NCBI GenBank assembly: GCA_003024785.1
Contig: PUQB01000330.1
Span: 130,001 to 194,000, forward strand
DNA from: Selaginella tamariscina
Taxonomy: Eukaryota; Streptophyta; Lycopodiopsida; Selaginellales; Selaginellaceae
Reading direction: 5' to 3'
Length of the DNA stretch: 64,000 nucleotides
Below are positions 14,113 through 60,296 of this stretch, in pieces. The notes below the pieces were generated by a model that was not told the origin of the DNA, searched no databases, and saw only the letters and a list, made by a program, of their open reading frames with translations. Each line of letters opens with the position of its first letter. Position 1 is the stretch's first letter. A program made the translations under genes and the position numbers.

Positions 14113-15124
14113 CAAGTATAATTTACGAAAGGAATGGTGTAAAATAGTTTTTTTTGTAATTGCACCATTAAAAGAACTGATAATAGTAACAATTTTTCAA
14201 ATTCATCCATATTTAAAGAGCCAACAAAAATAAAGAAACTTATATGCATATAGGGTTTTGTATATGGATTAGTAATTATTATCTTTAAATTGAGAACTCT
14301 TGAAAAATATTAAATACTTTAGTTCATATGAAAAATAATTTTTAAATAGGCAATATTATAAATAAATGATATAATGTACAATGATAAAATAATTTAATTA
14401 AACATGTTGTTGTAGTAATCACAAGTATATACAAGTCCTTTTTATTATTATTATTATCATTTTAATATGTAACATTTTTTTTAAAAAAAATCATAAGTAA
14501 GGATTTTTATAAGTGATTAAATTTGGTAGTATTTATCTTTGTTTTGAATTTAAATACTTTTAAAAATATTTATGTGTGATAATATTATCTAATATCTATG
14601 AAGGTATGTGAAAATTCTTTTCACAGTGTGCAAATAATTAATTAATATATAGTCTATAATATAAGCTGAGTCCCAGATAAGTCAAATGACTAATAATCAC
14701 AAATAAATAATAATAATCATAGAGATCTTATATAATAAATTTATTCAGTGTGATTGTCTGTATTCAACGGCCATTCTAAATCCACCATTCTAAACCCTAA
14801 ACGTGTGTCATTAAAACTCATTAACGACGGCCATCCTAAATTATATCAAAACCACGTGGTTTCATCCAAATATACAAAAGCAAACCTTAACTCTTGCCTT
14901 CATCCATGATTATAAATGCCTAGGTTGTGTCCATGTCTTAGTGCATATCAATTTTTCCTACTCATATGAAAGAAATTCTTGTTTATATCAAGATTGGAAA
15001 GTGAACTTTATATACATAATCCATGTGAATGTATTGTAACTATGTAAAAGTTCAAAGAAAATAAATGTATATGAATCATTGTCATATCTAAAAAGTAGCG
15101 AGCATAAGAGAGGATTGGCAAAAA
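10821..15124. other. AT-rich non-coding stretch
   Basis: No supportable gene. It holds a degenerate ACTCTCACTTTGTG-type tandem array (11570-11910), TTTTATAGTTTTATAA-type degenerate repeats (12500-13400), a TA microsatellite (about 14075-14110) and a telobox-like AAACCCTAAAC near 14790. ORFs here are short and low-complexity. Confidence 0.65.
11570..11910 (+). repeat. Degenerate tandem repeat (GACTCTCACTTTGTG-like)
   Basis: About a dozen loose copies of a roughly 24-base unit built on GA[CG]TCTCACTT[CT][AG]TG, for example near 11625, 11680, 11735, 11795 and 11820. Probably an old minisatellite or satellite remnant. Confidence 0.55.
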
Positions 15125-15166
15125 CCGAGCTTCGTACAACGGGCTTTTGCATATTCCCGAATATCC

Positions 15167-15209
15167 AGAATATTCTGTCAAATAAACAGGAATATTCTAG
15201 AATATTCTG
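15167..15209. promoter_or_regulatory. Heat-shock-element-like array at element B left end
   Basis: AGAATATTCT at 15167 and, at 15189, gGAAtaTTCtaGAAtaTTCt, a perfect four-unit inverted nGAAn array as bound by heat-shock factors. It may instead be a transposase-binding site. The palindromic core recurs at the right end. Confidence 0.5.
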
Positions 15210-15280
15210 CCAAGTAGATTATCTTTAACTTTCAATATAAAATGCCGACCAACAAGTGAAAAACGCTAATTATTTGCCGA

Positions 15281-18200
15281 CTAGACTTTACTATACCGAC
15301 TGGACTTAAAAGGTCGCAGGTTCGACATTGCGCTTGCAATCAACCAATAACCGATGCACTTCTGCTGGAGTAAGGGTCCGCCTCTGTAAGAAGTAAGTAA
15401 TCGTTGGGTCCAATCCAAGAACATGAGTGTACACAAAATACATGTGTTGGCAGGGGCTCCAGTTCTTGGCTTTCTGAAAAGTTGCACAAGTGCATGACGG
15501 AACATAGAAATTGTTACCTTAGCAGATTGCATGCCTGCAGAGACAATGAAGGCCTCAGTCTTCCCTCTTTGAACCACCTCCACGTTGTTGATCCGACCTT
15601 GAAGAATCTTTGCCTGGTTGTAATGTTTCTCATGTTCCTTGGACATTCTTGTTGGTGTTCGCACACTCCGTCCATGGTATGTTGGTACTCTATGTGCTCC
15701 CTCTCCTCTTGGTGGTGATGGTGTTCGATCCATTCGGCTACTACTGTCGTCTACCATTTCTTCAAATCCCTCCAACTTGAATCCTGCTTTCAGAAGAGCT
15801 TCAACCTCATTTGCATTCAAGTTTGTTCCTTTTTGAACTGGCCAAACCTCTGGAACTTCTGGAATACTCTCAGGAGGAATCCCTGCATATGGTCGTCTGA
15901 AGCAACAAGAAATCGTGGGCAGAACCATAACATCTGATGAGTGAACTCAATGTTCCCAAATGCATTTGTATATTGCCGTCTACCGTGAAATCCTGGTGCC
16001 GGTACACGATGTGGATATCCTATGGGTCTGCCACACTTGCTGTTACCGTCCTGAGTGAGACCTAGACATTTCACCTGACTTGCCTCCCCAATGCGTCTGA
16101 TGGCCCACTGAGTCATCAACGTCTCTCTTTCAGTGACATTGACATCTTGAAACTTGAGTTTTTTCCTGCGTGCATTTGGGATGACTTGTTCTGCATATTG
16201 TGTGTCATGTCTATGTGTACGAAGCGCATCAATCCCATGGTCCCCAGTTGACGGTTGACGAACGGTTCGAACACGAACATTTGTTGTAGAGGCAAACTCT
16301 GGACTTGCAAGATGCTCTTCATCACTAACAAGATTTGCAAAAGTTGTTGGAGACACTGATTTTCCCGCTGAAAGTTTCTGCTGTGCACGTTTCAGAAGAG
16401 TTTCCATGGAAGGACCTGTGCCTGAATATCTCCCTTCAAATGATGCCTTGACCTTTGCACTTTGGAAAACAGCATCTGTTAAATCTAACATTGTTGCCTC
16501 CAACAAAGGAACACGCTTCGTCAGCCTTGCTCTTCGTGCTCTTGCATGAACAACTTCGGAGTTGTTAGTTTCGCAACACCATCTTCTGTCAAGTCAATTA
16601 TCTCTGTCATGGAAATATGATCTTCATGTCTTGCCCACCATGACAGCCATGTTTGCAAAGCGCTAACGTTACTGGACCTGCCTTCCCAAAATGACTCCAA
16701 CATTACTCGTCGTTCCAACTTATCTTGGTTGGTTAGTGCTGCAGGCCATGAGCGTGCAAGGTTCATGTGCTCCTCCCTGTGTTCCTCAAGTATCCACTTC
16801 TTTGTAACTTGACGCACTGACTGCATGTAATGGAACAAACAACTCCTTTCTCTTCCTTTCATCTTTGACCCATTGTTGAAAACTTGACGCAATGCTAACC
16901 AAATTGCACCTGACTCATCTGACATGAACCCCGCAAAGTTCACATTATGAAGTCCTTGCTTGCTGCACACTTGAAGCATAGTGTTCAAAAATTTGATCAC
17001 CGCCACACTATCCTCCCTGATCATGTCACCATAAGCAAGTGTCACCATCGACCTTAAACTACACAAACATAAGTGCATTATATTAGTAAGTATTTTAAAA
17101 CATAGATATGTTAATACTTACAATGGATCATAGAGATGTATTCCCAGTGTACACCAATCATCAATACGATATGTGTGGTCTAGCACCACCCACTGCTGTT
17201 CGAGATCACCTCCAGATTGACACCTTCTAATGTAGTCTATTCCGGATCCTGGGCCGGCAACCGTCATTTTGAAGATTAAAGGCTGCTCTTCAGCTCCGTT
17301 GAGGTCCATTCCGGGTATGTGGATAACATGTATGAATGGGATTGATAGCTTCTTCTTTAACTGCAGAAGTCCTTCGTAACCTTCTTTGAAACGAGTGTCT
17401 CTTGTTCTAGCCTGAGATATCCATTCTCTTGTTCTACAGTGGAAAGGTTAAGCATCTCCAAAAGGAAATAATAATTTTTTTGCTTACCGGCGGTGATTTG
17501 TGAGTGGTAGTAGATCTGACAGAACCTTGTCGTATGATACATCTCCAGAATCTGTTACCAGTTTTTCCAAAATTATATTGCGTGCTGCTTGAAACTCTAT
17601 GACACGTTGATTAGTTCTTGGGGTTGCAGCGACTGCTTTGTTGATTGTCTCCTTAGCTCTGTCTTTAGAGACCATGGATTCGGGTGGTCTACGTGGTGTT
17701 GATGTTCTCCAAGATGGATGAAAAGCCTCGTGCATGTGATATCATCTGGAATTATGTAATATGCAACAACGGAGCATGTCTGCACTAGAAGGGGCTCATT
17801 GTTGCAATGCACACACTTCATTCCAAGCACTCTACCATCTGAAGATAACTGGACTTTATCAATGGTGCCCTTAAATTGGCAGTCATTTGCTTTCTTACTG
17901 AAGCTGATGAACGGACATGTTTCCTTTACGCATTTCATGTGGCCAATACATGAACTGCGACTAACACGAGCTGGAACATTCCAATGTGTTGTGCAGCGTT
18001 GAGTCCAGTAATCACACCCATCCTTCCTATTCATCCCTTTGTACTTGTCCTTCATTGTTTCGTGTGCTGGCAACTCGTAAATCACATTTCCGTTGCAATC
18101 TTCTGGGACCTCAGCAACTTGCTGAATCGATGACGAGACCACCAGTTGCTTCCCAATCCTACATCTCTGACTATTGCGAAGTATTGTTACCATAGAATTG

Positions 18201-18466
18201 TCCCGATCTGTTGTCTCCAACCGGAATAGTGGTCCTTTGGAAGGAAGAAGTGTGTAATACACAAAACTGCTAGCTCTTGCCCCTTCTGGTTCTACCTCAA
18301 CATTCGCAGCATCTCCACCAACAACAGACATCAAATGCAGCACTTTAAAAGATTGCCAAGGTGGAATGTCAAATGCAGACCTGAGATCTGTTTCAAAGAC
18401 AAATGCAATACCATCTTCATCTGCAGGGAAGTCCTTGTCAACACCATTGTAGCTGATTCTTGCCAT
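15281..18466 (-). pseudogene. Mutator-like (MULE) DDE transposase of element B
   Basis: Start chosen at MARISYNGVDKDF, the first Met after an open leader. The first exon holds a zinc-binding segment of the WRKY-GCM1/FLYWCH type found in MULEs (CIGHMKC...CPF...MKCVHC...IHLGEHQH). A frameshift near 17690 and an intron at about 17430-17480 follow. The catalytic core begins with QQWVVLDHTYRI (first Asp), passes an intron at about 17050-17118, and continues with GFMSDESGAIW (second Asp) and SCLFHYMQSVRQ, the C-x-x-H typical of MULEs. The C-terminal part has a possible C-x8-C segment. Frameshifts near 16520 and 15830 break the rest. The protein would cut and rejoin the element's ends in the nucleus. 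It is transcribed divergently from the ParB/MTase-like gene. Confidence 0.75.
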
Positions 18467-18933
18467 GTAGCAAAAATGGAACAAACAAAAGTTAAAATTC
18501 AAAGACAATGAACATATTACACACGATGGTTAATGTGTTTGTTAGTCGTGAGGCAATCATTTCATTGACAAATATTAAAAATAATATTAATTGCGTGCGT
18601 CTGGGTAGGTTTTTACTGTGGGTAAATTAAAAAGTTTTACTATGTACAAGTGGCGATCATGCATGCAATATGTTTACAGAAATTAGGTTGGTTTTTAATT
18701 GATTTAGGGCGGCTAGGGTTTTGCAATTAGGGCGGCTAGGGCAGCTAGGGCGGCTAGGTTTTCGTGGAGCAGGGCTCATTTGGGGGCATAGCGTGGAGCA
18801 AGTGTGGCTCCAGGGATTAATCACAATAGGCTTCCATTGAGGGGGTGAGTATTTTCTGATTTCTTCATGATCTGCTCATGATCTTTCATGATCTGTTCAT
18901 CTTTTTACATCTCTTCACAGTTGCAAGAAATCC

Positions 18934-19362
18934 GAGTCGGCCTGCCGACTCGGACTGACTTCGTTGTCCGTCCCAGTCGGCAGGCCGACTGGGGTGGACT
19001 GTTCCAGATCCAGTCAACATTTTGACCGGGGTTGACTGTTCCAGCCCCAGTCAGCATTTTGACTAGGGTTGACTGTTCTAGTCCCACCTAGCATTTTGAC
19101 TGGGCCTCGCTTCGTTCCCAGTCCCAGATTGGGCCTCCCTTTGTTGCCAGCCCAGTCGGCATGCCGACTGGGACTCCCTTTGATGCCAGTCCAGTGGCAT
19201 GCCGACTGGGCCTCCCTTTGTTGCCAGCCCAGTCGGCATGCCGACTGGGACTCCCTTTGATGCCATCCCAGTCGGCATGCCGACTGGGCCTCCCTTTTTG
19301 CCAGGCCCAGTCGGCATGCCGACTGGGACTTACAGCAACTGCTCTCTCAGTCGGCACGCCGA
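18934..19362. repeat. Array of CCAGTCGGCATGCCGACTGG palindromes at 39-bp period
   Basis: Perfect palindromes start at 19151, 19228, 19267 and 19306, each extending to 22 bp, with a one-base-deleted copy at about 19190. Spacing is 38-39 bp and the spacers are CCTCCCTTTGTTGCCAG or ACTCCCTTTGATGCCA. Weaker versions lie at 18934 (centre CCTG), 18972 (centre CAGG) and 19350 (centre CACG), with half-sites GTTGACTGTTC between. The array is GC-rich and sits in the divergent spacer of element B, next to the ParB-like gene. Roles to consider are a shared promoter/operator, a transposase or ParB-like binding array, or an RNA hairpin series. Confidence 0.85.
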
Positions 19363-19450
19363 CTGTGAGGGCTAGTATGTTTTTTTATTTTTTATTAAAC
19401 ATCTTTGAACATTTATTACAGTTTTTTGTTAAACCTTATTGCTTTTGTAG

Positions 19451-22400
19451 ATGCGCTCTTCACAACATTTACAAGAAAAGAAGATGAAGAGCCTACTGAG
19501 AGAGAAGCAAAGCTAGAGCTGCAATTCAGAGAGGGCGTCGGGGTCGTGGGAGAGGAAGTAGGAAGCTAGCTGTGGTTCAGGAACAAGGACCTTCAAGTGA
19601 TGCTCCAGTTGAACAGGCAAGCCAGCAGGACTGGTCAGGAGAGCAAGAGGATGTAGTTCAACCCCAACAAGAACAATCAGACTTTGTTGAAGAAGTTGAG
19701 GATGATGTCTTACCACAGGAGACACAGGAGCAGACAGAAGGCACACAAGCCTCATGATTCAGAGGCTGCTAAGAAGAAGAAGAAGGGTAAAGTAGAAGTG
19801 CCAGATAATGAGGAAGTTTACAACATTGCAGCCAGCATGCATTCGAAGAGTGCAGTGCGTCTTCTCGTAAAGATCACAATCCGAGAATATGGAGAGGCAC
19901 CGGATGTCCCTATTTGCCGAATTCTGGGAAATGAACAGGTGAGGAGAGTCAATCCAGCGGATCTGGAATCTTTGACTAGGAGTTTCAAGAAGGTAGTTGG
20001 TTATTTGCGCAACACCACTCAGTTCATCCTTCAAGTTGGGGACCCCATGACAGATGCAGATCTAGCAGCATTGAGAAGCGATGAAGCGATGTATGCTCAG
20101 CATTTGGCTTTTGAGGAGGAGCTTCAGTCTGACATGTTCCAGCAATGGGCACCAATGCTTTCAATGAAGAAGTTCATCTGTTGGGATGGTAATCACAGGT
20201 TAAAGGTGCTTCAGAAGCTTTACATAGAAGACACGGAAGATAAGAATCAGTGGGCAGTGAGAGTGTGTTCAGGCTTCATCCGTGCTGGGGTCATGGATAA
20301 TCTTCAGCTTGTGACAATGTTTCAGCAAATTAATAGGTAAACATAGTGACCTCTAGATCATAGGATTAACTAACTTCGAGATTTTCAAATATGCAGTTCC
20401 TCTGCAATGGCAGTGCAAACCACACTGCCACATCTTCTGCTATCTGTGAAGACATGTTGCACCAGTGAGGAGGGCACAGCAAAGATCTTGGCCAGGCTCA
20501 GTGACAAGGAACGAGATGACATAAGAAAGTGAAAGGAAAGTGCAACTGGACAACAAGCTTGGCATCCACTTCTGAATTTGATCTGTGCAAAGATTTTTTT
20601 TGAGGTACCACGTCTCACACTTATATTACTTAGTTGATTACGTCTGTGAATTACAGAGTGAGATTGAGGATGATCTTGAGAAGGCTGCAAGGGCATCTAA
20701 AGGCAACAAATACCAGGAGCAACAACAGGTCTACATTAAGCATGACAAGCGCATGATGAAGATCTTAGCCATCATCGATCCTGCATTGGGTGAAGAGTGG
20801 TTTGACAAGGTGACCCAAATCACATGGAAACAATGCAGATGGATGGAGTTGAAAAAGCTATACGTGCTTTCAAGGGCGAGAATTCCAAACGAGACGAGAA
20901 TCATGTACTTCAATAAACTGGTACGTCTCGAACTGAAGAGAGAGTAAGAGACACTTGGATTGCTGGGTGTTCAGGATAAGGAGTGGATAAGGTGGTTTAT
21001 TATCGATTTGTATTGGCAAGCAATCAGAGAGGGAGGCAGTCCAGATTCTCACGGGACTCATCGAGGATGGCGAGTGGACCAGGCCGGTTACAGATTTCAT
21101 GACTTGGTACGATGAAGTGCGGGTAAAATGCAAGAACATGATGTTCCAGCCATTCCATGAGTGTGTGAAGTTCACTTACTCGATAGAGCTGAAAGAGTTC
21201 CTCGAACACGAAGAGACAGCAAGAAGGATGATTTGGAGGTAAGGATGATCTTCTTGACAATGTTACATTCTGACACTACTATATGTTCATTACAAGTATG
21301 TCGCAGCGCCTCACACACAGACTATGGTATTCTGGTTAGATTACATGGAAGCACCACACATGTGGTCGAAGACAAGATCTGGCCTGACAGAGTTCGAACG
21401 TGTAAACGTACTGTTCTGGCTTGATTATCCACTTGGGCAACCACCAACATGGGAGCAGGATCTCTACAATGAACACTCAAAAGATCTCCCATGCATCTCA
21501 TGGGATCCGGCAGAGGTCGACTTCATTAAGAAGACAAAGGCCAAGGCAAAGCGGCGTCAGCCTGTGCAGCAGTCAAAGAAGAACTCAGATACAATAGCTG
21601 GCACCTCCACTACTCGCGACCCAGCTACCTTATTCAATTTATCTAAAGTGCTACCATCGCAGGGAACCATGGACATCAAGGATGACTTGGTCACATTCGT
21701 CCCTTCACTTGCTACAACTCGAGGTGATAATTTCTTGGCGATTGATGACATCGAGGAGATGCAACAGGCCGTGCTCACGGATGAGAAGGAAGAGGAGGTT
21801 CCTGCCGCTAGACTGGTTCCTTATAGAAAAGTTCAGACACAGGTGGCCAGGTACCATACAGCTGACAGCCAGACTCGCTACCAGCATATTGCGGGAGAAT
21901 ATGGTTTCAACTTGGTGATCTTCGACCTTCCAAATGGGACCTTGCCAAGAAATACAACGAGTGATACGCCATACCTCTACCTTGATCCAGTGAAGTTCGA
22001 TGAAGCACTCCAGTTTGCAGGTATGCATATGGCTGCAAATGGTTGGTTGATTGTGTTTGCTGCAGCAACACCTGGGATCAAGTTGTCCGAGCTGCAAGTG
22101 TGGTGGACCTTCAACTTGCTGCAACGTACTACATCTACAGAGGGCGTGGTTGGGGCTACTGCAACAAGATGAAGGTACTTTTTTCTTTATTCATGAAGTT
22201 CATTAATGATTTTTAATGTTTTAACAGGAGAGCATCCTGCTCCTTCTTGTCTTCCAAGATGCATCTAGAGGATTGCGCGATAATTTGCTGCGTTTGTCAT
22301 CAACAATTTTTGTTGATAATCCTGAGCGGTTCCAAGAACCATGATAGGCATTTCATTTCAACAATTTAAGTATTTATCATTTTTTCACATGTAGGATGGA

Positions 22401-22689
22401 CTACCAACCGAAGAGCACTCGATTGATGCAGCTCGTGATAGAACGACTCACCCGGCCAGGTGATCTTATCTGGGATATAGGCAGTGGTACGGGGTCCTCA
22501 ATGCTTGCAGCTATCGAGCTGGGGAGAAAACATTGTTGGGACTGAGAAGAACCCTGAGCTCGGAGAATTGCTATGAACAGGATTAAAGAGAATATCCAGC
22601 CAGAGGAAATCCCAACCCAAGCAATAGCGACGTCAAGTAGGACTGGTGTTTCACGAATTGTAGCATTGCTCAATCGTAAGAAGAAGTGA
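19451..22689 (+). pseudogene. ParB-like plus N6/N4 DNA methyltransferase-like gene of element B
   Basis: The N-terminal part (from ATG 19451, two early frameshifts) has an AT-hook-like RGRRGRGRG and a Gln/Glu-rich stretch. The ParB/sulfiredoxin-like domain spans about 19850-20290: PICRILGNEQVRRVNPADLE...LTRSFKK...FICWDGNHRLKVLQKL, with the G-x-H-R signature. Intron-like gaps follow (after 20338 and near 20600). The methyltransferase region has FNLVIFDLPNGTLP (about 21905) at motif IV, a GWLIVFAAATP strand, and at 22400-22560 LMQLVIERLTRPGDLIWDIG...GSGTG...AAIELGR plus, one frame over, NIVGTEKNPELGELL. This is the motif X-I-II series in the beta-class order of N6-adenine/N4-cytosine enzymes. 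Motif I looks intact; motif IV is DLPN rather than DPPY. Several indels break the frame. Confidence 0.65.
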
Positions 22690-22818
22690 CAAGTGTTGAA
22701 TTGTACTCTTTGATGTTGAAATAAAACTTTAATAATACAGTATAAACATGACTATGATTTAAATATTTTTTGTTGTTAATTGCCGACTGAGCCAAAATCC
22801 TAAATTCTAAGAATATTT

Positions 22819-22862
22819 AGGAATATTCTAAGAATATTCTGGTAGATTCTTTAGAATATTCT
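22819..22862. promoter_or_regulatory. Heat-shock-element-like motifs at element B right end
   Basis: GGAATATTCTAAGAATATTC at 22820 and AGAATATTCT at 22853, the inverted counterpart of the left-end cluster. The two GAAtaTTC units at 22820 are offset by one extra base from an ideal continuous array. Confidence 0.45.
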
Positions 22863-22946
22863 GGGTCCAAGCCCGGAAGCCCGGAAGCCCGGAAGCCCTC
22901 TTTTCGTCGGGACTCAGCATAAGACTAGAAACTGGTGTGTTTCATA

Positions 22947-22964
22947 TTTAGGGTTTAGGGTTTA
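22947..22964 (+). promoter_or_regulatory. Telobox (TTTAGGG repeat) upstream of LSM3
   Basis: TTTAGGGTTTAGGGTTTA, two and a half units of the plant-type telomere repeat. Teloboxes are common near the start of plant genes for translation and RNA processing, which fits the LSM3 exons about 180 bases downstream. Confidence 0.6.
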
Positions 22965-23142
22965 TTGTTTAATTTCAGATACAGTGTGTACCGGCATTTA
23001 CATATATTGTTGAGTTTAATATGGGAGAATGACATCTATCTTTGTTTTGTATGTCCGATAAATACGTGTAAGTGTAGCTGTGAATGTATGTATGTATACA
23101 GTACTTGTGTGTGTGTGGAAGCTAATATAGTATATTATACAG

Positions 23143-23374
23143 GCATATGACCAGCACTTAAACATGATACTTGGCGAAGTGGAGGAGGTTGTCACCACCG
23201 TGGAGATTGACGACGAGATTGTAAGGGTAAGTTGTATACATGTGTGTGTGTACATCTGTATATATGAAACACTTAGTATACACTTATTCGTAGACCACGA
23301 AGAAACAGGTTCCGTTCTTGTTTGTGAGAGGGGATGGAGTTATTCTAGTGTCACCTCCACTACGAAGTGCTTAA
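23143..23374 (+). CDS. LSM3: LSm3, U6 snRNA-associated Sm-like protein (last two exons)
   Basis: LSm3 is a subunit of the LSm1-7 (mRNA decay) and LSm2-8 (U6 snRNP) rings. Exon 23143-23226 encodes [20 protein letters not shown] plus EIDDEIVR. After a 67-base GT-AG intron, exon 23294-23374 encodes [20 protein letters not shown] then PPLRSA and TAA. Both exons are in phase and hold the Sm1 end and the Sm2 motif. The loop between strands lacks four residues relative to the usual EIDDETYEEIVR. The N-terminal exon is not clear: 22990-23075 gives HLHILLSLIWENDIYL, faintly like the expected LDLIRLSLDERIYV, which would make it decayed. Either this is a pseudogene or the first exons lie elsewhere, possibly displaced by element B. 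Confidence 0.8.
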
Positions 23375-24247
23375 GTTTAATATCTGTGAGTTTGTATTAA
23401 GAAATCTTTTTGTGATTGTCTTATGATCAAGAGACAAAGATTATGTTAAATTTTGGCATATATAGTGTATACAAAACGTATATGTGTGCGTGTAAGTGTC
23501 TGTCATTAAGAACCAGCACACACGCGCACATGCACACGCACGCATACACAGACGATTTTTGAGTTATGAATTCTTCTATATGTCTTTATAAGTATATATA
23601 TCATGGAGACAGATGCAGCTGATATACTAAATCCTTGGAATAATGTTTTGATTAAATATAATAGACTGTCTAATGATTGTTAACAAACTCATTTCATTTA
23701 TATGCAATCTTATTAAAATTGATAATTCAAATTCTTGAGGTCTTATATCTGTTTTTAATGAAGACTCAAATTGTAATAACATCGTTTAAAACTTTTGATG
23801 ACTGTACACATTCTTTCTTACTGTCCTATAATAATAAAGAACACAACTTTGTACAGAGACTTATATATCTGTCATTCATATCTCAATCCAGCGTGCATGC
23901 GTGTGTGCAATGCACCTACGGAGCATATACATGTGCATATTGCAGTATACAAAGTATTTCCCGTCTAACCCTCTCTCTTTGTGTTTGTATACACACGCAC
24001 ACACATATATAGATAGATAGAGATATAGTATCTGATATAGATATAGATATCATCTGCCAGGAATTTCACTATTTTAATCAATGCCATACGCATATACAAA
24101 TTTGCATATATACACAAAGCTTAGATATAGATATAATTAATGCATTAAATTAAATTATTATGCTGTATTATTGATAATTCAAATGTTTTAAATTTTATAT
24201 TTATCTCAAGGAAGTTGAGTTATATTTGAAATTTTGATGTTCTTTTA
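23375..24247. other. AT-rich 3' flank of LSM3
   Basis: No gene seen. It contains CACACGCACA-type tracts near 23515 and GATATAGA repeats near 24010-24050. Confidence 0.6.
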
Positions 24248-39592: not shown

Positions 39593-39605
39593 AGTTGTAC
39601 ATGCT

Positions 39606-40843
39606 TATCATGTCAAAGATCAGCATGCCAGAGAAGTTCAGTGGTAATTGCGTTGATTTTCAAGATCTCTTGAATCAGATCAAGCTTTTGATCCGCATGC
39701 AATCACACCGTTACTCGACTGATGCACAAAAGGTTGGCCTTTTGGCATCCTTACTAGTTGGATCCCCACGGGCTTGGGTTGCCCCTTTGCTGGAGCATGA
39801 CGACCCATTGATGGAAGACTTTGAAAGATTTGTGGCTGCCTTTAAAGCCTGCTTTGGAGATCCCGATAAGTACCGTTTTGCATGCACAAAATTAAGGAAG
39901 CTCACACAAGGATTCCAACCAGCTTCCATCTATGCATCCGAATTTCAGCAACTTTGCACAAACATTTCATGGGACGAGACTGCATTGATCAAACACTTCC
40001 GTTTTAGGTTGAGGGATGACGTGAAGGACCTTCTCCTTATGTTATTGGATGCCCAAACCTTAGCAAAGATCATACAACAGGCCATTCGCTGCAACAACCG
40101 TTTACTCGGGTGTCATTAGGAAAATCCCGTCAGCAGTTTTTACAAGCCAATCCTATAGCTGTAGCACATGTTCGTACGACACCTTCTAAAGTAGTTCCTA
40201 TGGAGGTTGACAAATATAAGCGTGGCCCACTTTCAGCTGTTAAGAAGTAATGTCGTCACAGTGAGAACTTATGCTTGTATTGTGGTGAAGCAGGACACAA
40301 GATGGTAAAATGTCCTATTAAAGCCAGGAAGTTCAAGACGCGTGAAGTTGAAGCTGAAGTTCAGTCGAAAAACTTCAAATGTCCACTTCGTCTAGGAGCT
40401 GCAAAGTTGGACATAGGTGCAAGCTCCATTGGTGCTGCTCACACCATTCCATCACTCAAGTTTCCTGTACACATTCGCCTTAATAATCGAGAGCTCAAGG
40501 AGTTTGCCCTGTTAGACACTAGTGCAAATGCATGCTTCATGGATGACACTTTTGCAACTCAGCATGGCATTTCGGTGGTGAAATTGAAGCGTGCAGTTCC
40601 TGTAAAGGTTATAGATGGTCGTTTAATTGCTTTTGGGGTAGTTATCCATGCTACCACACTTCTCTTTTGCACTCATGGCGCATTCAATTGTTCGATTTCC
40701 TTCAACTTGATCAAAACTTGGACAACTCCCATTGTTTTGGGTATGCCATGGTTTGTGGTTGCAAATCCTCAAATCGATTGGAGGTCCAGGATGCTCACGT
40801 TTTCTCTCCGGCAGCCAGGATTAATTTTGTACCTTCTCGAGTG
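39606..40843 (+). pseudogene. Gypsy gag (central), zinc knuckle and protease
   Basis: Starts abruptly at SKISMPEKFSGNCVDF, the retrotransposon gag domain, followed by AWVAPLLEH...FKACFGDPDK...LTQG. A frameshift near 40110 leads to a basic linker and CLYCGEAGHKMVKC (CCHC knuckle). The aspartic-protease-like region has FALLDTSANACFMD (catalytic DTG changed to DTS) and IVLGMPWFVVANPQIDW. One TAA before the knuckle stands where Gln is usual. A solo LTR interrupts the frame at 40844. Confidence 0.8.
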
Positions 40844-43655: not shown

Positions 43656-46600
43656 ATTGGGTCTTCTCCTTGAGTGTGGTAGCTTGACACACATTTGGTC
43701 CTCTTGGTGGCAACGGAGTTTTCTTCATGAGTGTGGAAGATGGTCATATTACTATTTGTTCAACTCCCTCTAGCTTAAATTTTGCTTCCTATAAAATTGT
43801 AACCTCCTCGACATGTCACACATCAAGCGCATGGACAACCTTTGTTTGAATGATCTTTACATAGGGATGTTTGTAACATGTAAAAGGATGGGGGCAAAAC
43901 CACATTATTTGGCACACATGTTCAACATTTTTTAAGGCAGTTGTAAACGTCTTGTGCCAAAAAATCCTAGTGATAGAACATGTTGTAAATTTCCAATCAA
44001 GCACCTGTATTGCCCAAACATTTCACATGGCTCAACTTTCTGATTCTCTATATAACCCAATTTGTTAGGTGTACCTCTCTTTTGTGTATGTCCTGAAATT
44101 TAAGCTTCTTTCTTCTAGAGTTTGGAATCACCTATTTGCATAGTGGTGTGTGTGGAGTTCATGAGTGTCGTTCGATTCAGTTGAAGTCTTGCAGACCGTG
44201 CAAACATAAACATTAATTGATGAAACAAACTCAATACTAGCTAAGTGTTTCTCCTTGTCGATGAGGTTGATAATGGTAGTAGGTGACACAAACTTTCTCA
44301 TTGATAACTTTTGTCAAACTTTATCAATGAGCATGTTCTTATAAGGTCTAGATCTTGTATAACTTCCTTCTAATGTTGCCTTCACCTTGGCATTTTGCAA
44401 GACAACGTCTATAAAATCTAGCATTTGGTCTCCAGTAAGAGGAAATGTTTCGTTAGTTGCGACCTTCTCGCTCTTGCATGAACCACCTTCGAGTTGTTTG
44501 TGGTTGGGATGTTGAACATATCTTACTTTGTTAGGTCATATATCTCACCATGGATATGTATTTCTTATGCTTGATCCACCAAGCCAACCATGTCTTTAAA
44601 GTAGGAATGTTTGATACTCATCCATCTTAAAAAGATTCAAGCATTGCAAGCCTCTCTACTTTCTCTTCATTAGTTAATACCTCAGTCCAAGAATTTGCCA
44701 AGTTCATGTGCAAAGCCCTATGTTTCTCTAAGATCCACTTATTAGTAAGCTGCCTGATGGATTGCATTTAGTGAAACAGACAGCTTCTCTACCTTTCATT
44801 TATTACCATTATTAAATACTTGATAAAGGACTCTCCAAATGGCACATGCTTTATCGAACATCAAAATTGATGTTATAAAGTCCTTGCTTCTAACCAACAT
44901 TGAGCATAGTGTTCAAAAAATTAGTCATTGCAATGTTATCCTCCAGACACATGTCACCATACACTATCATGACCATTAAACGCATGTGACAGGCTCACTA
45001 CTTACAATAAATCATAAGATGAATACCAAGTGTAGACCACAATGTGTGTAATCCAAAACCACCCATTGTTGCTTGAAATCACCACCAGATTGACTCATGC
45101 AAATGTAATCTACTCTTGATCTAGGCCCATCAATTTTTGTTTTGAATATTAGAGGTTGTTCTTCTACACTATCGAGTTCCATCCCAAGAACATGAACAAC
45201 ATGGATGAATGGTATGGGCAACTTTCTTTTCATTTCTAAAGGTTGTTATAACCTTCTTTAAACCTTGTATTGTTGGTTCTTGTTTGTTTGATCCATTCAT
45301 GAGTCCTGCTACAATGAAAAGTTAAAGAGATCATAAATGTTTTGTTGCCTACCTTTTGTGATTGGTGAGTGGTTCTAGACTCTTTAAAAGTTTGTAATAG
45401 GCTATTACATCTGGTGTTTTAAAGAGCTCTCCCATGATCATCTCACGGGCTACTTGGAACCCTATCACCATAGTTACGAACATGAACACGAACACGGAAC
45501 ACGAACACGAGCCTCAGATTTTAGAAACTCAACCACAGAATATGATCACGACTCACGATGGCTCACGAATATTCTAGTGAATATTCTAGGAATATGCTAT
45601 TTTTAAATTATATTATTTTAGGAATATACTATTTTTATTATATTATTCTTAGTATTTTTATTTGCACATAAACTACTTCACACCTATAAACTACTTAAAT
45701 ATCATGCATCTCATCATCATCTTCAACCTCACAATCTTCGACATCATCTCCATCCTCTCCTGACTCAAGCTCGTCTTTAGGATGAGGAACTGTCTCCAGG
45801 ACTTTGTAGCTTACAAATTGGCCATGCCCCTTGCTCTCAAGAACACTTACCTCATAATTTGTGGCCATGCCCCCTGCTCTCAAGAACACCCACCATCACA
45901 AAGAAGGATGCTTTCGCAGTATGCTGGATTGATGCGCCATGCTTGTTGTGCCTTGGATTGTTGCTATCGTGCCTTGGATTGCTGCGTGCACCCTGAATTG
46001 CTATGTGACGCCGTGCGCCCTAGAAAGAATATTTCGCAAGTATATTCAACCGAGAATATTTGAACAGTGTTTCATGTTATGAACACGGGCCATGATCCCG
46101 GCCGTGGTCGCTAGGATCACGGCCCGTGTTCGTAACATGAAACACTGTTCATGAACACGGCCGTGGGAACATGATCCATGGCCGTGTTCATGAAACACGG
46201 TGAACACGAACGGGATCCTGACTGTGTTGGTAACTATGCCTATTACTCTTTGGTTGCTCCTCAGACTGTTTGCAATAGTTTTGCTTTATAAATTGCTTAG
46301 CTCTAGCTTTTGATTGTAGATGACAAGGAAATGCTAGTGGGATATTGATGTTGACCACGATGAAGAGTCTAGTCTTCATCACATAGTCAGGTATGATGTA
46401 GTAAGACGTGAACTTATGTCCCTTCAGAAGATTTAATTTATCTCCATAGTGCATGCATGTCATGCCTTCAACTGTCCCAAAGAATGTTTTCTTCACCTTC
46501 AGCATGAAGCCTTTGAAATGATATTTGTTTGAGGTCAAGAAAAGGATAAGAATGGTTCATGCACTTCAAATGCACGACACATTTACTCCAATTGACCGGT

Positions 46601-46880: not shown

Positions 46881-48327
46881 CCCTAAATGTAGTGAGAAAC
46901 AGCCCCGCTTAGTGCACTTAAGTGTTTAAGGGTAGTCTGGCCGGCTATCTTTAAATGTTGCAAGAAACTCTAAGCGAAGGTAGCACTTACCTTCTAGAAA
47001 ACCCACCCCCAATTTTGACGTCCCAATAGGCTGATTGGTCTTTGCAGATGAGTTCGGTGTTAAGTAGGGTTAGGAACACCCCTAGGGTTGACCTAACCCT
47101 AGGTTGCCCTAACCCACGCCCTAAAACCCCCACCCCCTTGGGTAGGGTTTAGGGGTAGGAGTAAGGGTGAGTTATAGGCTCATATTGCTAATTTGTCTAA
47201 GGGGCTAAATTCAGTGCCAGCCCACTAACACATACAGGAAAAGAGGGGGGGGGCTCCGTCACATAAATAAGGTAGAGTATACGTAGGAGAGCTCCTGGGT
47301 TCATGAATGAGTTCGTTGCTCTTCTGCCGGTGCAAGCTTCAGCTTGTGTCGTTAAGGTACAACCCTCTGTTGTGCCGCCCTAACTTCCAGATGCCAGGGG
47401 TACGTCCCACCTTCGGGGTAGCTTACCCTTAACGTTGGCGAATCCATGCCTGGGAGGTCTTGTCGGAATGCACGTTCCAAGAGGCAGAGGTTGAGGCTTG
47501 TCTCCAGCCTCCTCCTCCACGTCAAGCTAGGTGTAGCACTCACGGCCAAGCAAGGCACATCCGTGTCCTTGTCCAACTGTGGGCGTGGGATCTTGTTTGA
47601 CAGGTTCACGTTACCTGGTTCCTGAGGGTTCATTGAGGGGTTCTAGAGTTGGCATTTAGGAACCACGTTTGTGGTACTTGGTGCAACTCTTGAATCTAAG
47701 GGCTATGGCATGATAGCCACATCATGGAAGGCAGTGTCACATAGATGTGACACTGGGCTAAACGTCACATGGTACAACGCCCGAGGCACCCTTTGGGGTT
47801 ATGTCATGGGCTTGTCGCTAAGGGGTTGGATACTCTAGCAAACAGGCATGCTTGTGCTTGCACTAGGGTGCTAAGCCTTGGGCATCCGCTCAAGGGAGGT
47901 TAGGTCTCGTAACTAGGTGTGCTTTGGCACACTTGGCTAGGGGAGTGTTCTCCTTGGAATCCAGGGGTTGAACAACCTAAGCTCATTAGCAAAGCCCTTT
48001 CGTAAGGCACTCGCAAGGTCATGTGCTTAGGGTTATCCCAAACCTAGCCTTAGGGAGTTTGCTTAGCAGAACACTCGTGTCCGCCTACGGCACACTCGTG
48101 TCCTCACTAAGTACTAGCCCTAGGTCTAGGGTATACTTGGCCACTCAAACCCTTAGGGGTTAGTCGTGGTTCAGGGTACCCCTTCGCCCTAAAGGGTTGT
48201 ACTCCCATGAGGGTGATTCCTCAAGGGGTAAGTGACGATGCCTTAGCTCTGTCCAGGGGTATGTGTGGAACACACGTCTCCTTGATGGGGGTTAGGGCAT
48301 GAGCCTGTCTAGGTCTTCTAGGGCAAG

Positions 48328-48470
48328 ACCCTAAGTCAAACTAGGGTTATCCCTCAAGGGTTTTGGGGTAGACACTCTAGGGAGACTTAGGCTAAACCCT
48401 AAGTCAACTAGGGTTATCCCTCAAGGGTTCTGGGGCAGACATTCTAGGGAGACTTAGGCTAAACCCTAAG
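48328..48470 (+). repeat. 68-bp tandem duplication
   Basis: The unit begins ACCCTAAGTCAACTAGGGTT and includes TCCCTCAAGGG and CTCTAGGGAGACTTAGGC. Copies start at 48328 and 48396, and a third start at 48463 breaks off. The copies differ at only a few positions. Confidence 0.85.
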
Positions 48471-49059
48471 TATCTTGTCCACTTGCGCATTAGAGTCTAA
48501 CCCTAGGGGTCGTTGGGTTGTTCTGGGAACTTAGCGTTGCTCACACAGGGTGATGACGCCGAATGGCCATCTGGCAGCCACGTGTTGCCACGTGTTGGCC
48601 CTTTGGGTTAAAACTCTGACAAATATGGTCAATTTTAATTTCAAATCCTAATCATTCATTTGTATATCTAAACACAGTTAGATTCAAATCACGTCCATGA
48701 ATAAAGAACCCTATATATAATTCTAGGCCACATTTTAGCAATTATAAAATAAACCTTAGCCATCTTCCACCATTCTTTAAAGATTGCCTAGTTTTACTTT
48801 CTTCTGTTTTGTTCGCTTTTCCTCTTATATTCTTTTATGCCATATCCATCTACATAGAATTTCAAATGTACATCCCCTTCCTATCTCTTCTCAATTTCCT
48901 TGCTAAAACACTGAGTAGTACCGACAAGCTCTTCCCTATTCAATATAATGTATCCCCTTTGGTTCCCCATGCCATCAGCACCTAGCAAGAGTTTTTGATC
49001 TCTTTACTAGTGTTGACTTGTAGCACTAGCATACATCCCCGTCAATTGGGGAGTTCAAC

Positions 49060-49370
49060 ATATACCCCTGAGTTAGCAGAGTCATTTTCCCTTTTCTACC
49101 TTAGCCAGTGCTAATTGGGGAGTTTGGCATATACATCTACCTTAGCCAGTGCTAATTGGGGAGTTTGGCATATACACACCTATATCCCTTTTCTGCCTTA
49201 GTCAGTGCCGATTAGGGAGTTTAGCATAACCCCCCTAGTGGTAGCACCATTTGCTCCCTATATGTATTGGTTAACACCGATTGGGGAGTTCAACATAAAC
49301 CCCCAGTCAATATTGTCATTTGCTCCCTATATTGTATTGGTCGGTGTCGATTGTTGGGCATACACTCTCC
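49060..49370 (+). repeat. Degenerate tandem repeat with TTGGGGAGTT core
   Basis: Cores at about 49038, 49106, 49156, 49211, 49281 and 49347, spaced 50-70 bases and interleaved with CTTAGCCAGTGC and TGCTCCCTATA blocks. Origin unknown. Confidence 0.55.
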
Positions 49371-55833: not shown

Positions 55834-58800
55834 TCAGGAGGAGGCACTGGTGGATCTGTAGGGCACAACTTGTTCCCGTTGCACAAAATGCTTCAACCGT
55901 TGTACATGTACAATCTCCGGAGGATCGGGTTGAATGTCGTGCCGAACCTCATAAACCTGTGGCCCTACTTGCCGTAGCACTCGATACGGTCCTTTCCATT
56001 GAGGAAGGAGACTCTTAGCTAAACCACGTACCGTAAGCTTGGGAAAACGAACCAACACCAGTTCATCAACCTTGTACTGCAGGAGGACGATGATGCGAGT
56101 TGTACGTTGTTGTTGTCCTACTTGTACGCGGCCCAAGTGTTCTGCTGACTCCGCACGAACCAATGGAAGAATTCGTCAGATACCGATCCCATGACCTAGC
56201 ATCAGCAGCTCGCGGTAACCGAGAAGGCAAACCCAACTCCGTTGGCAACACCGGGTCATGACCATACAAAGCTTATATGGGGAAGTACCAATGGAACTTT
56301 GAACTCCAGTGACATAAGCATATCGGAGAGACGGCAGATAACCATCCCAATCTGAATGTTGAAAGTTCACATACTTCGCGATCATCCCCTTGAAGGTTCT
56401 GACGAGCCGTTCCACTAAACCATCTGTCTGAGGATGATAAGCACTTGTGAAAGTGTGGCGTATCCCTATCGAGATGTCAAAACATGAAATGCCTCAGCCA
56501 TAAATGGGACCATTATCCGAGAGAATTCGCTCCGGACAAGAATGCTGAAACACGACCCGATTCAGGAGAAACTGACCAACAGCAGAAGCAGTCGCACTAG
56601 CAAGAGCACCAACTTCTACCCAACGAGTTAGGTAATCAGAAGCAATAATAACGTACTCGTTACCAGCAGTTGACCGCGGAAAAGGTCCCATCAAATCAAA
56701 TGCCACCAATTCAAACGGACGAGAAACTGCAATTGACTCCAACCGTCCTTCCGAAGCACATGGGGGAGTATTGCGAGCTTGGCACCACACAAGCTACGCA
56801 CATACCGAATCACATCTCCTCGCAACTCCGGCCAATAGAAAGATCTGCGCAGCTTCTCCATCACCCGACGATGTCCCATGTGCCCGCCAAGAATAGGAGA
56901 GTCATGGTAAGCATGGAGGAAGCGTGGAATGAAGATTGAAGGCACCACCAACCGCAAAGGATCATCTGGATCAGTCCCCACAAAATAAAGAAGGTCATCC
57001 TGAAGGCGATACTGCGAATGTAAATGCCTGAAAGGCAAGTCATCAGCAAGTGATGCAGGATTCTCAAACCCATCACGAAGCCTTCGAATCCACGGCTCAA
57101 CCTTTTGAGCTTCCCGAACCTCATCCAAAGACGGCAAATCTAACTCTGCATTCTGCGGACACTGAATGTCAAGCACAGCAACTGCTGATGGTACGGAATC
57201 TTCGTCCAAAAAGTCCACTGAAGCTGGAACAACTGGTTCCTCTGGGGCAACAGAAGAGAGAGAAGGTGGAAGAGGAGCCCGAGAAAGAGCATCAGCATCA
57301 GCCATGGAACTTCCTGGCGATGAACAACTTCAAAGTCGTAAATTTGAAGTTTCAAGGCCCACCGAGCAGTACGCCCAATCAAATTCTTCGCTTCAACAAC
57401 GAAGTGACTGCTGCATGATCGCCTTCCAACAACGTCCGCGAACCATGCAAGTAGGCATGGAGCTTCTCAAAACCCCAAACTGCTGCTAGACACTCCTTTT
57501 CTGTTGTGGAGTAATTCACCTCTGCTGGCTGCAATGTACGGCTGATGTACGCAATGGGATGTCGTTGGCCAGGAACACTCGTACTCTCCTGCATCAATAC
57601 CCCCCGAGGCCGATGTCAGAAGCATCTACACGCAAGATGAAAGGACGGGTGTAATCCGGGTACGCCAAAACTGGAGGAGTCGTCAACAACTCTTTGAGAT
57701 CTGCAAATGCCTGCTTGCAATCCTTAGACCAAACAAAAGAAGTCATTGACGATTTCAACAACGCGCGCAACGGTGCAGTACGATCTGAAAGATGATCCAC
57801 AAAACGACCCAGATATTGTACCTTGCCAAGAAAGCGTTGCACATCATTCACACACTTTGGCGTAGGGAACTTCAAAACTGCAACTAGTTTGTCAGGATCG
57901 ACTTGCAAACCTTCACGTGAAATGCGATAACCCAGATAAGTGGTGTCCTTTGATCCAAACACACTTAGATGGCTTCAACTTCAAACCAACTTCCCGCATC
58001 GATCCAAAACCTTACGTACATCACCGACATGCTCCTCCCACGTTCCATCCGAATGGATCAAAACATCATCGATGAAATCGGCAGTCACCTCCGGCATGTC
58101 GCAAAGAACCTCGTCCATCATACGCTGGAAAGTTGCTGGAGCATTGCTCAAACCGAAAGGCATCACCAAGAACTCGTACAGGCCAAATGGTGTCGAAAAG
58201 CAGTCTTGGGAATGTCCATGTCAGCCATCGGAACTTGCCAATATCCAGATGCGAGATCTAACTTGGTGAACCAACGGCTCCGCCCCAGTCGATCCAAAAG
58301 GTCTGCAGTATGAGGAAGTGGGTACACATCTGAGACGGTTACCTCATTTAATGGGCGATAGTCAATGCAGAATCGAACGCTCCCATCAGGCTTCGTCACA
58401 AGGTGAGGTTCGCACGCCCAAGGACTTCGAGACTTCCGGATAACACCCTTCTCCAACATCTCTTTGACATTCGCTCGTAAGATCTTGAGCTCCTTTGGTG
58501 ACCGACGCCGAACAGGTACCTTGATTGGCCTAGCTTCTCCAGTTGGAATAGGGTGGCGTGTCGTTGGCCCCAGATGACAAGTCGAAGTTGAAAAGATCAG
58601 CATACTCCTTCTTGAGTTGATCAACAACTACAGCACGACGATCATCTGATGGATCCAGAAGAAAAAGGAAGAGCATGAAGGGAAAATGGTTGGAAAAGGG
58701 TGAGACAAAAGTGATGGAAGCAGAGGTGGAAGCAGATGGACGAAGTGGAATAGAAGTAAGAGGAATGGAAGAAAGACGAGGGAGAGTCAAACAAGGGGGA

Positions 58801-59193
58801 GACTTTTCAAAGTCACACTTGGCATGATTGCGAGTTAACCAATCCATACCAAGAATAAGGTGAAAAGCTTGACTCGGCACCACCCGCAAAGATTGAAGCT
58901 CGAGCTCACAATCATCCACACGAACAACAATGTCCACTTCATCCCGCGAACAAGCATGAGTATGTCCGTTGCCGTACAGAATGAAGACTGGTTCTACCGC
59001 ACGACGCAAATGAAGGCTGCAACGTGTAGCAACAGATTGAGAAACAGAGGACAAACTTGAACCTGTATCCACCAACACTGAAAGGAAAACAGGACGTGGC
59101 TGTGATTAAACGAGCTTGAAAAGTGAAAACCGGATGATTTGGTGCCGAGTGAACCCCTTGATGATACTCCCGAAAGAAAGATGGAGGGGTCAC
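55834..59193 (-). pseudogene. Gypsy pol: protease, RT, RNase H, integrase
   Basis: Protease: LVDTGSSLSSVS and HLILGMDWL. Reverse transcriptase: FCIDYRPLNEVTV, WFTKLDLASGYWQVPM, VMPFGLSNAPATFQRMM and FIDDVLIHS (YIDD-type box). RNase H: PFILRVDASDIGLGGY and AEVNYSTTEKECLAAVW. Integrase: LHAYHDSPILGGHMGHRR (zinc end), AFDLMGPFPRS, RILSDNGPIYG and MERLVRTFKG (D, D, E), then LPQWKGPYRVLRQVGPQVYE (GPY/F-like end). Several frameshifts and stops separate these blocks, so it is inactive although all domains can be traced. Confidence 0.85.
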
Positions 59194-59197
59194 TAAT

Positions 59198-60152
59198 TTA
59201 TTCGCACGAGGACCCTCCTCTACTCGTGCGATTCGTCGTTTCCCGGAAGATCCACCGCATCACAACCTTCCACTGCAGCAGCACCAACCGGACGTTGTTG
59301 ACGCCATGGCCTCCATCCTGGAAATGGGGACGCCAATCGGGAAACCGTTGACAGCGCCGATACGTGTGTCCAACCTCATCACATGCCCAACAACGAACTG
59401 CACGTCCACGTCCTCGTCCACGGGCCCCACCTTGTGCTGGTACACGAGCGGCAACAGCCTCAACCTCCATCGGAGCAGGTCCATCCCCAACATGGAGTGG
59501 AAAGAGCACGTGAAGGCGCAAGTGGGAGAGGTGACGACTCATATCGTTGTGCCAGCCTCAAAGCATCGTCAAGAGTCACTGGAGCTAGTGCATGCACAAG
59601 CCCCACAAGGTCTTGACGAAGTGCTGGCCACAACATACCTAACTTGATGCGTTCCGACATGTTAGGTTCTGCACGCAGCAAAAGGCTTCGAAAGCGAACA
59701 CCAAACTGCATCACCGACTCAGATGGCTCCTGACGAATACGATGCAACTGCTGAAAAGCATCATCACAGTCGTCCGCATGCCCAAATGCACGTTTGAAGA
59801 TCTCTGGAAGAATATTCCAATCTCCACGAGTTGCAACGTCCAGACCATTGTACCACTGCAACGCCGTCCCTTGAAGACAAGTAGGAAACTCGCGCAAACA
59901 CTGAGCACCGTCCCACGAATGATATGTGGCAACCACAATGAAGTGGTCAAACCAATGGTACACATCATCTCCAGGATTTCCGCGAAAGAAATCCGGCCGG
60001 ACACGGGGGTTTGCAACATGAGTAGGAGGAGTACCCTGGCCTGTGAATGCTGCCATCAACTGAGAATGATTGTTCAGTTGCACACGCATGGCATCCAACA
60101 ACTGCATGAGTAACTGCTCCACAGACAAGGGATTTGCCTGTTGTGGATTCAT
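59198..60152 (-). pseudogene. Gypsy gag with CCHC zinc knuckle
   Basis: Start chosen at MNPQQANPLSVEQLLMQLLD. The retrotransposon-gag domain has FRGNPGDDVYHWFDHF, LQGTALQWYNGL and FQQLHRIRQEPSESVMQFGV. After a frameshift near 59480 come an Arg/Gly-rich stretch and CWACDEVGHTYRRC (CCHC knuckle) for RNA binding. It forms the particle shell in the cytoplasm. Confidence 0.85.
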
Positions 60153-60296
60153 GGACAAAGAAAAGAACAAATCCACAAGAAAGGAATAGATCTAGACAAT
60201 GGAAAAGCTAGACCTAAGAAGACAAAAAAATTGATAAAAAGACACAAATCCGAGCACTCCGTAGGGACAATTAGAGGTGCCCCTCACCTCCACCAA

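Follow-up and report, generated by a model that had tools for sequence, protein, structure and literature searches.

Within a 64,000-nucleotide stretch of the Selaginella tamariscina genome (contig PUQB01000330.1, positions 130,001 to 194,000; hereafter the window), we recognized a single 7806-bp element that is framed by a target-site duplication (TSD) and holds two divergent, frame-broken genes. Gene A resembles the transposases of Mutator-like elements (MULEs), and gene B carries a domain like those of DNA amino-methyltransferases; between the two genes lies an array of palindromes whose core, GCCGACT, is shared with both ends of the element (Table 1). The original prediction, made from the sequence letters, had placed a single unit of about 7.8 kb here, and this was borne out by the TSD around the unit and by a step in GC content at its edges. 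The TSD itself and the palindrome array are additions to that prediction.

Table 1. Features of the element and of the related transposase copy in the window
Feature	Position	Strand	Basis or detail
Left target-site duplication, AGCATAAGA	15101-15109	none	exact 9-bp match to 22916-22924
Whole element, 7806 bp	15110-22915	none	framed by TSD; terminal inverted repeats 15/24; GC step at both edges
Left terminal inverted repeat and AGAATATTCT-rich subterminal part	15110-15215	+	
GCCGACT near left end	15276-15282	+	second CCGACTGG at 15296
Gene A, Mutator-like transposase (partly confirmed), frame-broken	15299-18466	-	motifs LDHTYRI, SDES, CLFH; codon-position test against second copy
Palindrome array (11 units; consensus CCCAGTCGGCATGCCGACTGGG) in the intergenic region of genes A and B	18932-19367	none	
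Gene B, multi-exon, frame-broken accessory gene	19500-22690	+	intron and reading-frame analysis
ParB/sulfiredoxin-like stretch (candidate), WDGNHRLKVL	19753-20336	+	motif only, no profile support
Putative methyltransferase motif IV position, FDLPNG	21921-21938	+	aligned to vDlvlaDlPYGt of phage enzymes; alone not significant
Putative SAM-binding half of methyltransferase (PGDLIWDIGSGTG at 22456-22494, then GTEKNP)	22396-22600	+	Pfam N6_N4_Mtase
GCCGACT near right end	22782-22788	+	
Right terminal inverted repeat, AGAATATTCT-rich part and AAGCCCGG x3.8	22804-22915	-	
Right target-site duplication, AGCATAAGA	22916-22924	none	exact 9-bp match to 15101-15109
Second, decayed gene A relative, outside the element	43880-46600	-	64.6% DNA identity over 941 columns; tblastn

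The TSDs of MULEs measure 8-11 bp, and the exact 9-bp repeat AGCATAAGA on either side of the element falls within this range. Read inward, the two termini follow the pattern GAG...G.C.AAAA..G.GCTTC and are identical at 15 of 24 positions, forming weak terminal inverted repeats (TIRs), with CGGGCTT and CCAGAATATTCT present further inside both ends. A TIR score of 15 was reached by 0.035% of 20000 random end pairs. Of the exact 9-bp repeat pairs with a spacing of 7-9 kb in the window, 1207 in all, the pair of the element tied for the best score with one AT-rich pair, so that the TIR score by itself is no proof of the element ends. When starts at 14501-15400 were combined with ends at 22700-23399, 35 exact 9-bp pairs were found, and the score of 15 was reached by the AGCATAAGA pair only; with 8-bp repeats allowed, a further pair with this score appeared inside AGAATATTC repeats. 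The GC content per kb was 0.41-0.50 within the element, compared to 0.22 in the left flank and 0.35 then 0.23 in the right flank (2 kb on each side). The flank also has a short run of TTTAGGG, which together with the introns of the genes points to a plant origin. By eye we weighed a wider element with its start near 14671 (GCTGAGTCCC) and gave it up because no TSD was seen there; an Rfam scan of 14500-23500 returned nothing at the gathering score.

Gene A begins with an ATG at 18466 and has introns at about 17436-17487 and 17060-17121. Long parts of its reading frame are intact, but the frame is broken near 17731, 16551, and 15900. We take its three motifs (Table 1) to be of the Mutator type. 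Searched against Pfam at E up to 1, the pieces of gene A matched no family, the best score (Fer4_2, E 0.43) being below the cut-off. The predicted WRKY-GCM1-type zinc segment found no profile support, either in the pieces or in the read-through. Since gene A has no Pfam match and resembles known transposases in its motifs only, we term the element Mutator-like and do not file it as a MULE member. In viral contigs, residues 1-599 of the read-through from gene A gave a few pattern matches, none of them a relative by tblastn. In a comparison with the second copy of the gene in the window, over 322 aligned codons from four non-overlapping stretches picked by the analyst, differences at codon positions 1, 2, and 3 numbered 115, 75, and 194, respectively, indicating that the gene A lineage evolved under protein-level constraint. 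The motifs, the 9-bp TSD, and this codon-wise conservation partly confirm gene A as the predicted Mutator-like transposase. The C-terminal part of the second copy is partly inverted (42.65-42.8 kb). That copy also contains an insertion of about 750 bp (45480-46235) whose ends, inspected by eye, appear mirrored; inside the insertion is an inverted repeat of 91 bp (46061-46151).

Gene B has three GT-AG introns that preserve the frame (20337-20396, 20605-20656, and 22175-22227) and a likely fourth that does not (21239-21296). Its frame is also broken at several places, and a stop lies at about 20530; all of its exons presumably belong to one gene. The present copy of the element is broken and hence is itself no working module. 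The read-through translation of gene B matched the Pfam family N6_N4_Mtase (PF01555) at E 4.1e-7, with 30.6 bits against a gathering cut-off of 26.7, and the PADLOC Type II methyltransferase profile at E 1.7e-9. The piece 22399-22530 alone reached N6_N4_Mtase at E 5.8e-6, barely over the cut-off, and PHROG 67 at E 3.5e-7. Among PDB sequences, CcrM was matched at E 3.7e-4; PrmA and PRMT7 were also matched (E 8e-4 to 2e-3), because the S-adenosylmethionine (SAM) motif is widely shared among methyltransferases, and the chains named DNA cytosine-N4 methyltransferase (8s9m and 8s9n) at E 0.3-1.5 only. NCBIfam gave corrin and other methyltransferases only, all far under the cut-off. By tblastn against phage records, 185 records were matched at E up to 10, with a best E of about 0.01 among the 20 matches listed. 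Two custom viral methyltransferase profiles, built from 30 and 4 enzymes, scored gene B at 30.4 and 38.3 bits, respectively, compared to 2.9 for the best of 998 shuffles in each case, although these shuffles were built from the upstream half only and are a lenient control for the SAM-binding half. The catalytic motif lies upstream of the SAM motif, which is the beta-class order. Judged by these profile matches and this order, gene B carries a homologue of the beta-class DNA amino-methyltransferases (of the N6-methyladenine, 6mA, or N4-methylcytosine, 4mC, type), as had been predicted, and its putative SAM-binding half resembles the phage beta-class enzymes.

The catalytic half, scored by itself, was not distinguishable from shuffles: of 1000 sequences given in each case, it ranked 403 of 846 listed with a DPPY-rich profile and 24 of 764 listed with a four-sequence profile. 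At motif IV, gene B has the non-canonical reading DLPN in place of [DSN]PP[YFW] or D[LI]PY, and we therefore call the domain a homologue and claim no activity for it; in a broken copy, DLPNG may reflect decay or a trait of the family. The 34 viral enzymes compared had DPPY (29), SPPY (2), DLPY (2), or DIPY (1), a tally that is no census, as 30 of them had been chosen for a canonical motif. In three phage beta-class methyltransferases (L007 and the near-identical L089 and L090), DIPYG or DLPYG replaces DPPY. The prokaryotic or viral source suggested for gene B is not demonstrated by these searches: its SAM-binding half is phage-like, but close relatives of gene B were not found in viral contigs, nor was a relative of its first part found in GTDB genomes (a few pattern matches, none a relative by tblastn). 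Within the window, tblastx at E 0.01 linked 18 residues from the region of gene B (22106-22159) with 47749-47802 in a transposase group, a match that we did not count as evidence. A resemblance between 49.4-49.8 kb and the beginning of gene B, considered by eye, was dropped; tblastx at E 0.01 gave nothing there.

Upstream of the methyltransferase-like domain, the sequence DGNHRL (D at 20185) is the sole occurrence of DG.HR in the 127996 six-frame residues of the window. It retains the arginine of ParB Box II, which is described as required for nucleotide binding (PMC12704722), and VRRVNPADLESLTRSFKK, upstream of WDGNHRLKVL, resembles the first ParB box. The same source reports N6_N4_Mtase fusions of the ParB-CTPase fold from phages and sulfiredoxin as the commonest eukaryotic form, and words that start with plant or transpos are absent from its main text. 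A profile built from 80 viral ParB domains aligned to gene B in two collinear stretches in the right order, but without significance (rank 222 among the real sequence and 999 shuffles); hhalign gave a probability of 0.3%, and the best chance matches of the stretch were DUF3037 (Pfam, E 0.085) and TIGR00057 (NCBIfam, E 0.055). The mean predicted local distance difference test (pLDDT) score of the ParB-like stretch from single-sequence AlphaFold2 was 37.5. Pfam found ParB_N in the phage fusion L004 at E 9.8e-9 but also missed it in L005, although by eye the beginning of L005 resembles ParB. The ParB identity of gene B is thus not confirmed, and we treat it as a motif-level lead only.

The array between the two genes is made up of 11 units, placed by hand, of a 22-bp palindrome; four units are perfect CCCAGTCGGCATGCCGACTGGG and 8 of the 11 are distinct. 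Nine of the ten start-to-start steps measure 37-40 bp and one measures 68. A search for CCCAGTCGGCATGCCGACTGGG with up to three mismatches gave seven matches, compared to none in 100 shuffles, and there was no exact match in viral contigs. Palindromes as such are not rare, since 149 with 9 of 11 pairs occur in the window, seven of them in the array. TTGAC half-sites take the place of CCGAC in three units. The arms of the units appear to change together: 83.0% of arm cells are paired, compared to 78.9% in shuffles (12 of 500), five cells are changed on both arms, compared to 1.8 in shuffles (a number that 5 of 500 attained), three pairs are changed on both sides (1.5; 37 of 500), and the covariation is 0.286 (0.200; 7 of 500), statistics that are limited by the few events and by the tandem kinship of the units. 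Single-strand folding of the array (z -17.25) was not used as evidence, as perfect palindromes give such folding anyway.

The core GCCGACT/AGTCGGC occurs 17 times in the window against 1.9 expected, 15 times in the array and once near each end of the element, and not at all outside the element, where 1.5 were expected. The two end copies are 166 and 127 bp from the ends and share the same orientation; 0.018 copies were expected in the 400 terminal bp, an expectation to be read with the choice of the motif after inspection of the sequence in mind. Of the looser RCCGAC, 31 copies are present in the window and 15 of them in the array, so that exclusiveness to the element is limited to the 7-mer.

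From these observations we tentatively read the locus, with a probability of roughly 0.42, as the inactive copy of a Mutator-like DNA transposon that has two genes and includes an accessory methyltransferase aimed at the sites of the element itself, for self-marking or anti-silencing. We counted in favor of this reading the framing of both genes by the TSD and TIRs, the methyltransferase profile matches, the distribution of GCCGACT, the changes on both arms of the palindromes, and the existence of analogues in VANC21 and in retrotransposon-borne DNA methyltransferases. In working copies, the gene A transposase would cut at the terminal repeats. The product of gene B, which perhaps joined a ParB/sulfiredoxin-like module to the methyltransferase, would be recruited to GCCGACT both in the central array and at the ends and would methylate the element's own DNA. 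Through this mark, the shared promoter would stay active or the transposase would be guided to the ends. If this is true, the pairing of a bacterial-type amino-methyltransferase with a dedicated site array on a DNA transposon would extend transposon-borne methylation to DNA transposons and to 6mA/4mC, and could reveal a route by which amino-methyltransferases entered plant genomes. A literature search found no paper joining ParB, Mutator-like, and transposable element, which does not establish absence from print.

Several results weigh against this reading. With E values up to 10 allowed, the 1025-aa read-through of gene A had no match in Pfam, and thus none to a MULE transposase profile. No ParB family was found in the gene B pieces by Pfam, PHROGs, or NCBIfam, or in the gene B read-through by Pfam or PADLOC, and the predicted ParB domain is left with its DGNHR motif. 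Profile searches, which the original prediction had put forward as a check on frame-corrected translations, recovered N6_N4_Mtase from the read-through translations and neither ParB nor MULE; of the predicted transposon with ParB-methyltransferase cargo, what stands is a methyltransferase homologue above the Pfam cut-off and both genes inside one TSD-framed element. DLPNG lacks the aromatic residue of DPPY and DLPYG, which makes activity of the present copy doubtful. Further pair types in the array showed no excess (7 compared to 6.5 in shuffles; 236 of 500). The co-mobility of genes A and B rests on one copy: tblastn at E up to 1 found no gene B beside the second transposase copy, which is too decayed to tell whether the two genes always travel together. 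Finally, the array may be bound by host factors or by the transposase rather than by the gene B protein.

The position of the array between divergent genes would also suit a bidirectional promoter of host-factor sites, with gene B unlinked to it as a captured gene or an accessory gene of other use. We take GCCGAC to be the core of the dehydration-responsive element/C-repeat and TTGAC(C/T) to be the WRKY W-box, and the array holds six W-boxes beside its 15 GCCGACT cores. We hold this account to be unlikely. Host transcription factors do not require perfect 22-bp dyads whose two arms change in concert, the single GCCGACT near each terminus is left unexplained, and W-boxes, of which the window has 73, are common. 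Somewhat less likely still, the array and end motifs could be sites of the gene A transposase, bound by its cysteine-rich N-terminal segment for end recognition and self-repression, with the methyltransferase incidental. The core is indeed common to the array and to both ends, where a transposase must bind, but its end copies are in the same orientation rather than inverted, and the DNA-binding zinc segment of gene A is without profile support. It is improbable, in our estimate, that a eukaryotic DNA transposon acquired a phage-like ParB-methyltransferase and evolved the palindromes as a parS-like loading site, from which the protein would spread and write 6mA or 4mC in partition-like self-marking; the partition-like role originally predicted was not shown, and the present copy is broken. 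Least probable is a chance, Pack-MULE-like capture of a host or foreign gene B between the ends with no family behind it, which fits the single copy and the second transposase copy without gene B, and against which the introns of gene B and its tidy divergent layout around the array are suggestive only.

Elsewhere in the window, an inverted duplicate (1558-5148/60352-64000, 94.6% identity) carries a gene for a phosphatase of the NIF type (3698-4285 matches Pfam NIF at E 1.4e-7), and a direct duplicate (29860-33034/52531-55603, 89% identity) has in its first copy two open reading frames without a Pfam match above the cut-off. Pieces of a Ty3-type retrotransposon lie at 39595-40116 and 56700-60191, with Retrotrans_gag at 39595-40116 and RVT_1 at 58166-58627. 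The region 47000-49370 is GC-rich (0.52 then 0.45 per kb); it contains repeated blocks of 83 bp near 48.3-48.5 kb, and inspection by eye showed a loose repeat at 49.05-49.37 kb.

Eukaryotic amino-methyltransferases have been described as host genes, namely N4CMT (PF01555) of rotifers (PMC8885841) and MpDN4MT1a/b of Marchantia (PMC8566409), whereas gene B appears to be transposon cargo. The rotifer N6_N4_Mtase was said in 2022 to have no eukaryotic homologues (PMC8885841), and one would therefore not expect such an enzyme on a plant transposon; MpDN4MT1a/b of Marchantia (PMC8566409) form the known exception. As for the marks, 6mA in plants is disputed (PMC12695648), and 4mC is reported from few eukaryotes, among them rotifers (PMC8885841) and, in sperm, Marchantia (PMC8566409). 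The phage ParB-N6_N4_Mtase fusions (e.g., Streptococcus phage vb_Spy_7, L004; PMC12704722) share with gene B the beta-class N6_N4_Mtase and possibly an N-terminal ParB-like part; in contrast to L004, gene B has no Pfam ParB_N, its two ParB-like boxes are much further apart, and it has introns. Retrotransposons of dinoflagellates (Symbiodinium) and charophytes (Klebsormidium) carry DNA methyltransferases (DNMTs; PMC5890265) and are likewise eukaryotic transposons encoding such an enzyme, but theirs are C5-cytosine enzymes in retrotransposons, compared to a bacterial-type amino-methyltransferase homologue in a DNA transposon here. The VANDAL/VANC MULEs of Arabidopsis (PMC5735166, PMC10398659) resemble the present element in having an accessory gene and a short motif arrayed in tandem repeats of noncoding parts, and VANC21 binds such motifs in VANDAL21 (PMC5735166). 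The VANC21 motifs run in one orientation and those of the present element are palindromes; the accessory protein here has a methyltransferase-like domain, and its binding to the array is putative. We claim no membership in the VANC system, the MULE family, or the active methyltransferases; these likenesses suggest VANC-type anti-silencing and retrotransposon-borne DNMTs as the nearest analogues of the proposed mechanism.

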